NCBI GenBank assembly: GCA_017508965.1
Contig: JAFWQT010000013.1
Coordinates: forward strand, 1 to 37,205
Direction of reading: 5' to 3'
Origin: Prevotella sp.
GTDB lineage: Bacteria > Bacteroidota > Bacteroidia > Bacteroidales > Bacteroidaceae
DNA length: 37,205 nt
Shown here: positions 1,008 to 3,533 of the stretch, one piece after another
How positions within the stretch are numbered: position 1 is the stretch's first letter
How the letters are laid out: each line of letters begins with the position of its first letter
The notes under the pieces: generated by a model
The model's database searches: none
What the model was told of the DNA's origin: nothing
The model's input: the letters and a program-made list of their open reading frames with translations, nothing else
Position numbers and translations under genes: made by a program

Positions 1008-1141
1008 CGGATTATTTTTTGCGTATCGGTGAATTTGTTGTATTTTTACGTCGTTCCTCCGTGAAGATACTCGCTCTCGGCAAAAAAAAGAATAATTTCT
1101 TTTGTTTTACTCTCATTTATCCGAAATTTTCGTATCTTTGC
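1008..1141 (+). repeat. Promoter-associated repeat, copy 1
   Basis: This matches 3382-3501 almost base for base over about 105 nt: a shared GTATCGGTGAATTTGTTGTA block, then CGTCGTTCCTCCGTGAAGAT, then CTCGGCAAAAAAAAGAAT, ending in the promoter-like TATCTTTG at 1133-1140. Differences include one T in the TTTTTACG run, CGCTCTCGG versus CGGTCTCGG, and a longer spacer before the -7 box. The orientation is the same as copy 2. I recall similar extended promoter blocks dispersed in Prevotella genomes, but have not verified that. Confidence 0.85.
1133..1140 (+). promoter_or_regulatory. Possible -7 box (TATCTTTG) in repeat copy 1
   Basis: TATCTTTG matches the Bacteroidetes -7 consensus TAnnTTTG. The nearest upstream TTTG (1101-1104) is 28 nt away, farther than the usual 19-21, so this copy is probably weaker than the recA copy. 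It points toward a 16-codon frame and no intact gene. Confidence 0.4.
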
Positions 1142-1286: not shown

Positions 1287-1337
1287 ATGTGCCTATAAGC
1301 CTTCGCGCGCACGAAAAAGTATTTTCTTCAAAAAAAA

Positions 1338-1405
1338 TGCCACTTTGCCACTTGCCCGGTGTTTATCAGGGTTCGCGCGGTGGCATTATGGTGGCATTAG
1401 TGGCA
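1338..1405. repeat. TGCCAC / GTGGCA cluster
   Basis: TGCCAC occurs at 1338 and 1346, and its reverse complement GTGGCA at 1380, 1391 and 1400. Between them is GGTGTTTATCAGGGTT, the first of three related modules: the second is at about 1466-1489 in reverse orientation and the third at about 1850-1872 in forward orientation. Repeated, symmetrically placed hexamers suggest a protein-binding cluster or a foldable transcript. Confidence 0.6.
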
Positions 1406-1452
1406 TTTTCGGGCGATTTTGGTGAAAATATTGGTATAGAATTTTTCGTTTT

Positions 1453-1571
1453 AAGGGTGTAAGGGTGCGGAACCCCGATAAACACTGGGCTTGCACCCTT
1501 ATTCAGAGGGTGTCAAGGGTGTCATAAGGGTGTAAGGAGTATATCCACCACAGCCCTCCCTGAATAGGGAG
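1453..1571. repeat. Inverted-repeat arm A of a foldback region
   Basis: This arm is the diverged reverse complement of 1777-1888. Shared blocks are AAGGGTGTAAGGGTGC, ACCCCGATAAACAC-GGGC, TTGCACCC, GAGGGTGTCAAGGGTG, a further GGGTGTAA, and the end block CAGCCCTC. Inside the arm GGGTG recurs, giving a G-rich strand. The arm runs into a small hairpin at 1554-1573 (CCCTCCC, TGAATA, GGGAGGG). Confidence 0.8.
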
Positions 1572-1582
1572 GGAGTTTATTG

Positions 1583-1604
1583 TTAGGGTTAGGGTTTGGG
1601 TTAG
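1583..1604 (+). repeat. Telomere-like TTAGGG tract
   Basis: Three and a half imperfect hexamer units of the type TTAGGG/TTTGGG. In a bacterium this is most likely a simple repeat, but it adds G-rich strand character just before the palindrome. Confidence 0.6.
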
Positions 1605-1608
1605 CGTT

Positions 1609-1692
1609 GAAAATTCTCTAGAGAATTTTCGCCAAAACATCATCGGAAGGGCTGCAAACTATCATCGGAAGGAATAAATTCTCTAGAAAATT
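1609..1692. repeat. 22-nt palindrome, twin 12-nt repeats and a partial palindrome
   Basis: Positions 1609-1630 form a perfect 22-nt palindrome centred on CTCTAGAG. The 12-mer ATCATCGGAAGG follows at 1639-1650 and again at 1661-1672, a period of 22 nt (two helical turns). AATTCTCTAGAAAATT at 1677-1692 is a second, imperfect copy of the palindrome core. The layout palindrome-repeat-repeat-palindrome resembles an operator, recombination core or iteron site; no protein partner is evident. Confidence 0.75.
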
Positions 1693-1776
1693 ATGTTTGT
1701 TCTCACGCTGAGCAAACGGATTTCACAGAGTTGTAGTCTTATTGGGCTTCTAATCAAGGCACGTAGGTATTAACTC

Positions 1777-1888
1777 TCTCCCTTAAAGAGGGCTGGGGTG
1801 GGGGTTACACCCTCCTGTCACCCTTGACACCCTCTATAATAGGGTGCAAGCCCTGTGTTTATCGGGGTTTTAGCACCCTTACACCCTC
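1777..1888. repeat. Inverted-repeat arm B of a foldback region
   Basis: This arm is the reverse complement of arm A (1453-1571) with scattered mismatches, separated from it by about 205 bp. It ends about 85 bp before the stop codon of the minus-strand ATPase gene, so a readthrough transcript of that gene would contain both arms and could fold back on itself. Confidence 0.8.
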
Positions 1889-1972
1889 AAACGGGAAAAA
1901 TTATATATGGAAAAAGCTGAAAAATAGTCAGGCGTGGCGAAATTGCAGACTTTCTTTACCGAGTGTGAGACC

Positions 1973-3169
1973 TCAGTACAATAGGCCTACAAGCCATAAA
2001 GGCAACTTCTTGCCGACCGGGAATTCCATGGAGTCGGCCAGGATATATGAGTCTGGAATGTCAGCTATCTGATCGAAAGTCTTGTCTTTTCCCCCTACCT
2101 CAAGGGTAATGCTACCATCTATCAGGAAATCGCCTTGGGTCTTTCCGTATTCCACTGTGTGGCCTACTGAAAGTTGATTCACGACGAAGCACTCTCTCAG
2201 GGTGCCGACGTTCTGTTCTGTCCCAAGAGCAAAAAGCATGTTAGGATTATGGACATAGATTTTATCGGGTTTCTGCATTTTAGTTACCGATTTGTTGTCG
2301 GCATATAGCAAATGTAACAATTCTGCTTTTTTCATGCTTGAGAGATAACTCAGGACTGTGGTCTTGTTGATTTCCAAATAGGAGGAAAGTTTGGCTATAT
2401 TCACATCGTAGGGAAGGTTGTTGGCTAGAAACAGCATCATGGCCTTCAGTTTGCGGGTATAGGAAGCCTCCACTCCGCAAAACTGAGTCATCTCCTGGTC
2501 GATGATAAAACTGACCACATTCTCTAACCGACTGTAGTATTCCTGTTCATCGCCATCGTAAAAAGGATAGTAGCCTACACGGAGATACTCTTCAAACAGC
2601 GCCTGTGGATGACAAAGAGCGCAAACTGTATCGCACACGCCATCTGCATCTTTCAGTATCTTCTCCAGAGAGTAAACGGGCAGTTCGATGTTCTTGTAAA
2701 AATGCAGGTATTCCCGGAATGACAGGCCTGCCATGTCGTAACTGAGCACTCTACGCGACAAATCGGCATCGGCATTGAGAATCTGAATAAGCGACGAACC
2801 TGTAAATGTGATTTTCATGTCAGGCCAAAGGTCGATGATCTCTTTCACCTCCTTGCTCCATGTGGGGTATTTGTGAACCTCATCGAGGAATAGGTGTTTT
2901 CCGCCCATAATATGGAAACGCTCCGCCGTTTCAAGAAGCGTGTGGCTGGTAAAATACATGCTGTCCATCACACAATAGAGAGCCTCACCTGCATTGACAC
3001 CATATTTCTGTTTGATATACTGGCGCATGAGTGTTGTCTTGCCAACTCCACGTGAACCACGAATCGATACAAGTTGTTTCTCCCAATTGACAGACCTCAT
3101 CAACTCGCGGACAATCTCCGTACTTGTCTGCGAGATTAATATACGATGCTTTTTGAATAAAGATTCCAT
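1973..3169 (-). CDS. AAA ATPase of the DUF4143 type
   Basis: This 398-residue protein is an AAA-fold ATPase. Walker A is at residues 38-46 (GSRGVGKTT) and Walker B at 93-97 (LFLDE), followed by VHKYPTWSKE; a sensor-like TFTGSSLIQI comes later. The C-terminal half fits the DUF4143 extension with a winged-helix-like part (INKTTVLSYLSSMKKAELL) and a nuclease-like end (FLIDGSITLEVGGKDK). Members of this family are common, often present in several copies, and their role is poorly known; links to toxin or mobile-DNA functions have been proposed. It has no signal peptide or membrane segment. It is transcribed away from recA from its own promoter (3195-3226) and runs toward the foldback DNA. It is bracketed by two copies of the recA-promoter repeat, which suggests acquisition into this site. 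The ATPase identity is firm; the biological role is not. Confidence 0.88.
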   Translation of the reverse strand: MESLFKKHRILISQTSTEIVRELMRSVNWEKQLVSIRGSRGVGKTTLMRQYIKQKYGVNAGEALYCVMDSMYFTSHTLLETAERFHIMGGKHLFLDEVHKYPTWSKEVKEIIDLWPDMKITFTGSSLIQILNADADLSRRVLSYDMAGLSFREYLHFYKNIELPVYSLEKILKDADGVCDTVCALCHPQALFEEYLRVGYYPFYDGDEQEYYSRLENVVSFIIDQEMTQFCGVEASYTRKLKAMMLFLANNLPYDVNIAKLSSYLEINKTTVLSYLSSMKKAELLHLLYADNKSVTKMQKPDKIYVHNPNMLFALGTEQNVGTLRECFVVNQLSVGHTVEYGKTQGDFLIDGSITLEVGGKDKTFDQIADIPDSYILADSMEFPVGKKLPLWLVGLLY

Positions 3170-3194
3170 ACTTAACTACTCTTGTTTTCAACGG

Positions 3195-3226
3195 CAAAAA
3201 TATAAAAGTTTATTGTAATAACCAAA
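3195..3226 (-). promoter_or_regulatory. Promoter of the DUF4143 ATPase gene
   Basis: On the minus strand TTTG (3223-3226), 20 nt, then TATTTTTG (3195-3202), an exact fit to the Bacteroidetes TTTG-N19-21-TAnnTTTG layout. The start codon lies about 25 nt downstream. Confidence 0.75.
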
Positions 3227-3381
3227 TTTTGATTGAAAAAGGTTACTGCAATAAGCGATATTTCTTGATTTCGGTGATTCCGCTAAGCGTTTTCACACAC
3301 TTTTCAATGATGTAAAGAGTGCTATGGTTTGTTGTATCTTTATGTCATTCTACAATTTGTTCCTGCCGCGAAAAAAGTTTT

Positions 3382-3501
3382 GGATTTTTTTGTGTATCGG
3401 TGAATTTGTTGTATTTTACGTCGTTCCTCCGTGAAGATACTCGGTCTCGGCAAAAAAAAGAATAAATTCTTTTGTTTTGCTCTCAACTTTTTGTATCTTT
3501 G
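3382..3501 (+). repeat. Promoter-associated repeat, copy 2 (recA)
   Basis: The second copy of the repeat at 1008-1141. AAAAGAAT and ATTCTTTT (about 3457-3472) form an inverted repeat that ends on the -33 TTTG, so the -33 element lies at the edge of a potential hairpin or operator. In this copy the spacer gives a proper promoter. Confidence 0.85.
3471..3501 (+). promoter_or_regulatory. recA promoter
   Basis: TTTG at 3471-3474, 19 nt, then TATCTTTG at 3494-3501. The recA ATG follows 32 nt later. No LexA-type box was recognised. Confidence 0.8.
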
Positions 3502-3533
3502 CATGAAATAATCTAAAAATGTAAATTAACGAT

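Follow-up and report, generated by a model that had tools for sequence, protein, structure and literature searches.

Upstream of recA in a contig of Prevotella sp. (JAFWQT010000013.1, assembly GCA_017508965.1) lies an intergenic foldback, the two arms of which read as diverged reverse complements of one another. What is this element? A first-pass annotation of the window, by which we mean the whole stretch of 37,205 nucleotides that was analysed, had offered three answers: a miniature foldback mobile element, a replication or recombination site, or an RNA that folds on itself. With a probability that we put at roughly 0.7, we hypothesize that it is the gene-less derivative of an element carrying a BT4734_N/VapE gene, that its arms are iteron-like loading sites, and that gene-less copies are mobilised in trans.

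Anatomy of the foldback

A repeat search of the window gave two inverted pairs, 1471-1535/1805-1869 (65 nt, 88% complementary) and 1442-1476/1865-1899 (35 nt, 80% complementary), and a family profile searched with nhmmer sets the arms at 1437-1542 on the plus strand and 1803-1905 on the minus strand, the whole element spanning approximately 1437-1905. The complementarity of the arms, which had been drawn at 1453-1571 and 1777-1888, is thus borne out with altered limits. Each arm consists of six short units at near-fixed spacing (two units, a core, one inverted unit and three more units), an array-like nature that the first-pass annotation had not recorded; the features that it listed between the arms (hairpin, tract, palindrome, direct repeats and partial palindrome) are all found in the sequence. 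In the following list, L146 and L151 are the VapE loci of RUG249, the closest relative, and of RUG030, respectively.

1437..1542, plus strand: left arm (nhmmer 98.4 bits; inverted repeat; VapE genes show the same layout)
1453 and 1461, plus strand: left-arm units AAGGGTG, spacing 8, read from the sequence
1473-1490: left-arm core CCCCGATAAACACTGGGC, read from the sequence
1493-1500: inverted unit of the left arm, read from the sequence
1507, 1516 and 1527: left-arm units AGGGTGT, spacing 9 and 11, read from the sequence
1554..1573, no strand: GC hairpin CCCTCCCT-GAAT-AGGGAGGG, which belongs to the VapE leader in RUG249 and RUG030
1583..1604, plus strand: TTAGGG-like tract, present in a shorter form in the RUG249 and RUG030 VapE leaders
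1609..1630, no strand: perfect 22-nt palindrome, the first of a pair known from VapE leaders
1639-1650 and 1661-1672, plus strand: two ATCATCGGAAGG direct repeats, spacing 22, also in the L146 and L151 leaders
1676..1692, no strand: second palindrome, imperfect; similarity to the VapE leader stops at 1695-1696, and the gene is absent
1697..1802, no strand: stretch occupying the position of the VapE gene; at about 1773-1797 it contains a second GC hairpin, now degraded
1803..1905, minus strand: right arm, mirroring the left (nhmmer 101.0 bits); 1808 corresponds to the first base past the L146 VapE stop

Within 1697-1802 the arm-side hairpin is the sole match to leader or arm, and the flanks outside the arms are of two end types, TATA..GGATTTTT or a GCGCGC hairpin. 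The statement that no gene explains the symmetry holds: the element contains none of the listed ORFs of at least 60 aa, and one TTG-started ORF (1824-2072, plus strand) overlaps the right arm. So does the statement that a minus-strand ATPase ORF (1973-3169) is directed into the element. Because neither the sequence nor the ORF list contains a BT4734_N/VapE gene within 1543-1802, we regard the window copy as a gene-less derivative and not as a full member of the family, whose defining features it otherwise displays (two inverted arms with the unit layout, and the palindrome pair inward of the left arm).

Several of these sequences and their surroundings also occur in other settings. The GC hairpin CCCTCCCTNNNNAGGGAGGG (window 1554-1573) is found at many sites of the window's own genome outside these elements, and the palindrome AATTCTCTAGAGAATT occurs alone, without arms, at several places (L038, L051, L055) of another Prevotella-group genome, G038. 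A promoter-like direct repeat (window 1031-1140 and 3386-3502) has many occurrences in related genomes. In RUG249, window 1923-3402, the region of the AAA_14/DUF4143 ATPase gene, is missing, with 1922 joined to 3403 and the rest 98% identical.

The gene-bearing form

The full form of the element reads arm, palindrome pair, BT4734_N/VapE gene and inverted arm, mostly followed by an HU-HIG gene. A search of genome contigs with an intact homologue from one related genome (G034) gave 39 VapE loci, the record titles of which are Prevotella, Prevotellaceae, Bacteroidales or uncultured bacterium MAGs, many from ruminants. Using a parser that accepts any unit and up to 6 mismatches, we found the array layout upstream of 35 of 37 VapE genes (at two loci the sequence before the gene was shorter than 300 nt) and downstream of 32 of 39. 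No control had it, neither the 37 shuffled upstream regions nor the 214 further stretches taken from these loci (0/251 combined; 14 of the 214 came to 8-10 mismatches). The palindrome is present as a pair in 27 of 37 leaders and singly in 3, is lacking in 7, and is found in 0 of the 214 control stretches. At 32 of the 39 loci an HU-like gene in the same orientation lies no more than 900 nt further on. On contig C79 of G051 the arms enclose a gene with a broken frame, read as two ORFs, one matching both BT4734-like_N and VapE-like and the other a weakly matching piece of DUF3874; an HU-HIG gene adjoins the outer end of one arm. The unit sequences themselves vary among loci (AGGGTGACA, AGGTTGTCA, AGACTGACA, GGGTGCCAC, GGGTGTGG and others). 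At the L147 and L148 loci the core is reversed relative to other families, as though the loop were able to invert.

The left half of the window copy, comprising arm, hairpin, tract, palindromes and direct repeats, is the BT4734_N/VapE leader of RUG249 and RUG030: the L151 leader is 84% identical to window 1487-1695, and the L146 leader 79% over 1447-1612 and 87% over 1577-1696. At L146 the right arm begins directly past the VapE stop and is 84.5% identical to window 1808-1891. From the homology of both leader and right arm it follows that the window element is a VapE element minus its gene, with about 110 nt of other sequence instead. We found no cognate VapE gene in the assembled part of the window's own genome (71% complete, 188 contigs), which we count against our explanation; a PF05272 search there found three genes, with unit types that are different or not clear, and sequences matching the two sides of the RUG249 VapE locus are on separate contigs (C154 and C12), between which there is no such gene. 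When the VapE protein was used as a query, the relatives found were all below 60% identity among plasmids (60 records) and phages (463 records), and mostly at or below 33%, with a maximum of 35%, among viral contigs (80 kept of 139). Of three plasmid records opened, one from Bacteroides finegoldii (L305) has CTGACAATA arrays flanking the gene on both sides, one (L306) has no arrays and one (L307) is ambiguous; among 18 PF08800 loci judged by eye, several, such as L113, L115 and L116, are without arrays.

The L146 protein contains PF08800, PF05272, PF19263 and a weak PF12990 match. By sequence, a profile of 36 VapE proteins matches PriRep1 (7pds) at 1.1e-6, and the best fold match of the VapE structure model is PriRep1 with dsDNA (E 1.2e-7), followed by a weak match to full-length ASFV PrimPol. 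The model is itself weak (pLDDT 77.6, pTM 0.50, with low quality across much of the ATPase domain), which we count against our explanation. Profile and model together suggest a partner protein that resembles the Rep/PriRep helicase initiators. No Walker A or B residue varies among the aligned VapE proteins, and primase motifs I (hhhDhD/E) and II (sxH), as defined in the available portion of PMC5862659, are absent from all 36, a loss that we also count against our explanation; a distant relative, L109, retains DFD and GYH at these motifs, judged by eye.

The arms and the protein covary. Identity between arms averages 90.4% (0.904) within a locus vs 76.6% (0.766) between loci, the downstream arm of the same locus is the best match in 21 of 33 cases, and on sequence comparison the units change together, in concert, in both arms. 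Loci with more divergent arms also have more divergent proteins (Mantel r 0.448 between the two sets of distances, 0 of 2000 permutations, n=32). When each of four protein regions is tested with the remaining three controlled for (n=36), the partial correlation is 0.328 for C-terminal residues 601-694 (0 of 1000 permutations), 0.129 for the primase-like region (67 of 1000), 0.048 for the middle region (273 of 1000) and -0.126 for the AAA+ ATPase region (917 of 1000); Mantel tests of this type remove shared ancestry only in part. As judged by this covariation, arm sequence follows the C-terminus of VapE.

Dispersal and the sites occupied

Arms are found at eight places in the window's own genome (contigs C81, C163, C127, C95, C120, C53, C110 and C170), and related rumen Prevotella have them at many. 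Those on C95 and C120 are near-identical and both at contig ends, and may therefore be one copy; C170 has a single arm that reaches the contig end. The similarity is not due to chance, the best other place in this genome having an E value of 1.5e-63 and several being at or below 1e-20. Matches occur in 11 of 100 genomes searched, a set that includes the window's own, and among those 11 we read arms in five (G000, the window's own genome, and G001, G032, G034 and G051), G038 having just the palindrome. RUG249 and RUG030 (G100 and G101) have many element matches, and 28 arms from 14 loci were read out from RUG249. With arms shorter than 70 nt left out, the dispersed arms are closest to VapE arms of their own genome in 23 of 24 cases in G034, 20 of 28 in RUG249 and 2 of 6 in G051, the last of which counts against our explanation; in the window's genome, 14 of 15 arms are best matched by the VapE arms of RUG249. 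A single-arm element of a second type, with TGCCAC/GTGGCA units round the same core as the window arms, lies at 1331..1410 (no strand) and makes up 11 of the 28 core hits in the window's genome; we identified no gene-bearing partner for it.

Among the pairs of VapE loci, at most 25 of 741 share any flanking ORF other than HU, several of these being ORFs antisense to HU. The many copies looked for were found, and so was a gene-bearing form with the same leader and arms, which makes the miniature foldback mobile element the best supported of the three answers given at the outset. Sharp ends and clean empty sites were also sought and were not found. No target-site duplication was recognised in the arm flanks of 8 loci of the window's genome, 3 of G051 and 25 of G034, and in G034 the far end is undefined since most copies have one full arm only. 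At the recA site, RUG249 has an element 98% identical to that of the window, and RUG030, which has no arm there, carries an intact Fic-family gene. Just the beginning of that gene survives in the window, near 1140-1218, which makes this an unclean empty site: the arms present in the window's genome and RUG249 are absent from RUG030, but the Fic gene was lost too. We considered a regulatory site of recA and rejected it; with a Fic-family gene and no arm upstream of recA in RUG030, the position of the window element is incidental.

An AraC-like gene and a thiC-type leader (names by eye) border the C127 site, which is occupied by the window's family in its own genome and in RUG249. In RUG030 this site is not empty, since a gene-less foldback with different, CCGTCAT units sits there (C16; L281, 1678-2109). 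This foldback is 83% identical over 432 nt to one beside the VapE gene on C119 of the window's genome (L117, 2840-3290), so that gene-less copies exist in a second family too, at an intergenic site that both families share. The blocks beside C53 3215-3518 of the window's genome and C102 35122-37290 of RUG249 lie on different contigs of relatives, marking synteny breakpoints. At the C91 site of G051, G106 is also occupied and four other genomes share one flank only. None of the five sites compared (recA, C127, C53, C102 of RUG249 and C91 of G051) is a clean empty site. We thus infer mobility from dispersal and differing contexts, and count the missing target-site duplication, defined end and clean empty site against our explanation.

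These traits bear on two further explanations. The element could be an ordinary MITE, moved by a conventional transposase encoded elsewhere in the genome, with the VapE elements as passengers that use the same ends. Its terminal inverted repeats, small size, intergenic position, multiple copies and lack of a gene are as in MITEs, and two arm pairs in RUG249 enclose other genes: one pair 2.0 kb apart (L291, 2126-4284) encloses DuOB and DUF488, and another 3.3 kb apart (L297, 2043-5526) a BspA-type LRR gene (LRR_5). We nevertheless consider this unlikely, as there is no transposase ORF between the arms where these were read (the partner codes for VapE, and the cargo is DuOB, DUF488 and LRR_5), the arms are unit arrays that track the VapE C-terminus, and the flanks read have no target-site duplication. 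Slightly less probable still is that the arms are operators of the VapE and HU genes and that the dispersed copies serve for titration or for structuring the nucleoid, having spread through recombination among the repeats with no dedicated mobility. Arms do directly precede the starts of VapE and HU, and copies do sit at the two synteny breakpoints, but recombination alone would not easily raise the copy number at new sites, gene-less copies have kept the leader and both arms, and the same intergenic site holds different families in different species. As for a structured RNA or terminator-type element in transcripts of neighbouring genes, the strong foldback and the ATPase gene running into it speak for it, but the whole window has no Rfam match at gathering score, the same layout lies on both sides of VapE genes and most VapE loci share no neighbouring gene except HU, so that we think this very improbable.

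A possible role for the arms

The second of the three answers, a replication site, survives as a proposal for what the arms do: they are iteron-like arrays beside a gene for a PriRep1-like helicase. In our preferred reading, that of a gene-less VapE element, VapE would be a self-loading helicase initiator whose C-terminal domain recognises the arm units. Loaded at both arms, it would cause the DNA between them to be copied locally, and the copy would be re-inserted elsewhere by host recombination or repair; HU-HIG would help to shape the foldback. Gene-less copies with matching units would be mobilised in trans, like MITEs. That each arm has six units would suit a hexameric helicase, which is no more than suggestive. 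The insertion step is the weakest, since the arm-VapE-arm unit has no integrase, nuclease or transposase and this step is left with no enzyme. What comparison of sequences shows is the homology with the gene missing, the multicopy dispersal, the conserved array layout, the concerted units and the C-terminal covariation.

In REP/RAYT systems, palindromic repeats are scattered through the genome and also flank a single-copy gene for their cognate protein, a Y1 transposase. The present family shares the dispersed repeats and the cognate protein gene between them, but its partner is a helicase of the AAA+ type whose primase domain is degenerate, and not a Y1 (HUH) transposase. The nearest parallel to the putative arm function is the SaPI rep-ori, together with SCCmec Cch2 and its putative origin, which likewise place a self-loading helicase initiator beside iterons near its own gene; SaPI Rep and Cch2 each use a C-terminal domain to bind repeats located downstream of the gene that encodes them (both from the available portion of PMC7581432). 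PriRep1, as the best structural match of the VapE model, points in the same direction, and what a SaPI-type rep-ori comprises, an initiator related to Rep/PriRep and adjoining iterons, is what the partner gene appears to have; a role as replication origin is putative. Unlike in SaPI and Cch2, there are inverted arrays on both sides of the gene and many gene-less copies, no integrase or recombinase accompanies it, and the primase motifs are lost.

The BrickBuilt MITE of Porphyromonas gingivalis is likewise a multicopy, intergenic, non-coding element with inverted ends, and contains a 23-nt tandem repeat and ends like those of ISPg1/ISPg9 (PMC4596501, available portion); the ends of the window's family, in contrast, are unit arrays about 100 nt long, and its gene-bearing partner encodes a primase-derived helicase. 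BT4734-like/VirE_N primase-helicases have the same Pfam domains, PF08800 and PF05272, and the portions of PMC5862659 and PMC8211822 available to us do not mention flanking arms for them; they differ from the VapE clade studied here, in which motifs I and II are absent from 36 of 36.

A broader possibility, which we advance tentatively and hold to be distinctly less probable than our reading of the window, is that of a class of mobile elements free of transposase and integrase. A helicase initiator with a dead primase would read the unit code and copy the DNA between the arms, spreading itself, gene-less copies and occasionally neighbouring genes; the code would switch with the reader domain across lineages, giving many separate families per genome. 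VapE primase-helicases in mobile elements, iteron-type origins and MITEs are each known, and their combination here appears to be new. In the open-access literature, the coverage of which is incomplete, we recognised no description of these foldbacks.

BT4734/VapE genes are widely annotated in Bacteroidota, with plasmid, phage and chromosome matches and no stated job. If the arms are loading sites, these genes would become replication-type movers of a large family of non-coding repeats, one at which assemblies break and which occurs at synteny breakpoints. The pairing of units with the VapE C-terminus offers a natural set for studying how the specificities of an initiator and its origin change jointly. 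From the repeat in the window comes a hint that a replication starter, instead of a transposase, may help DNA elements to spread.
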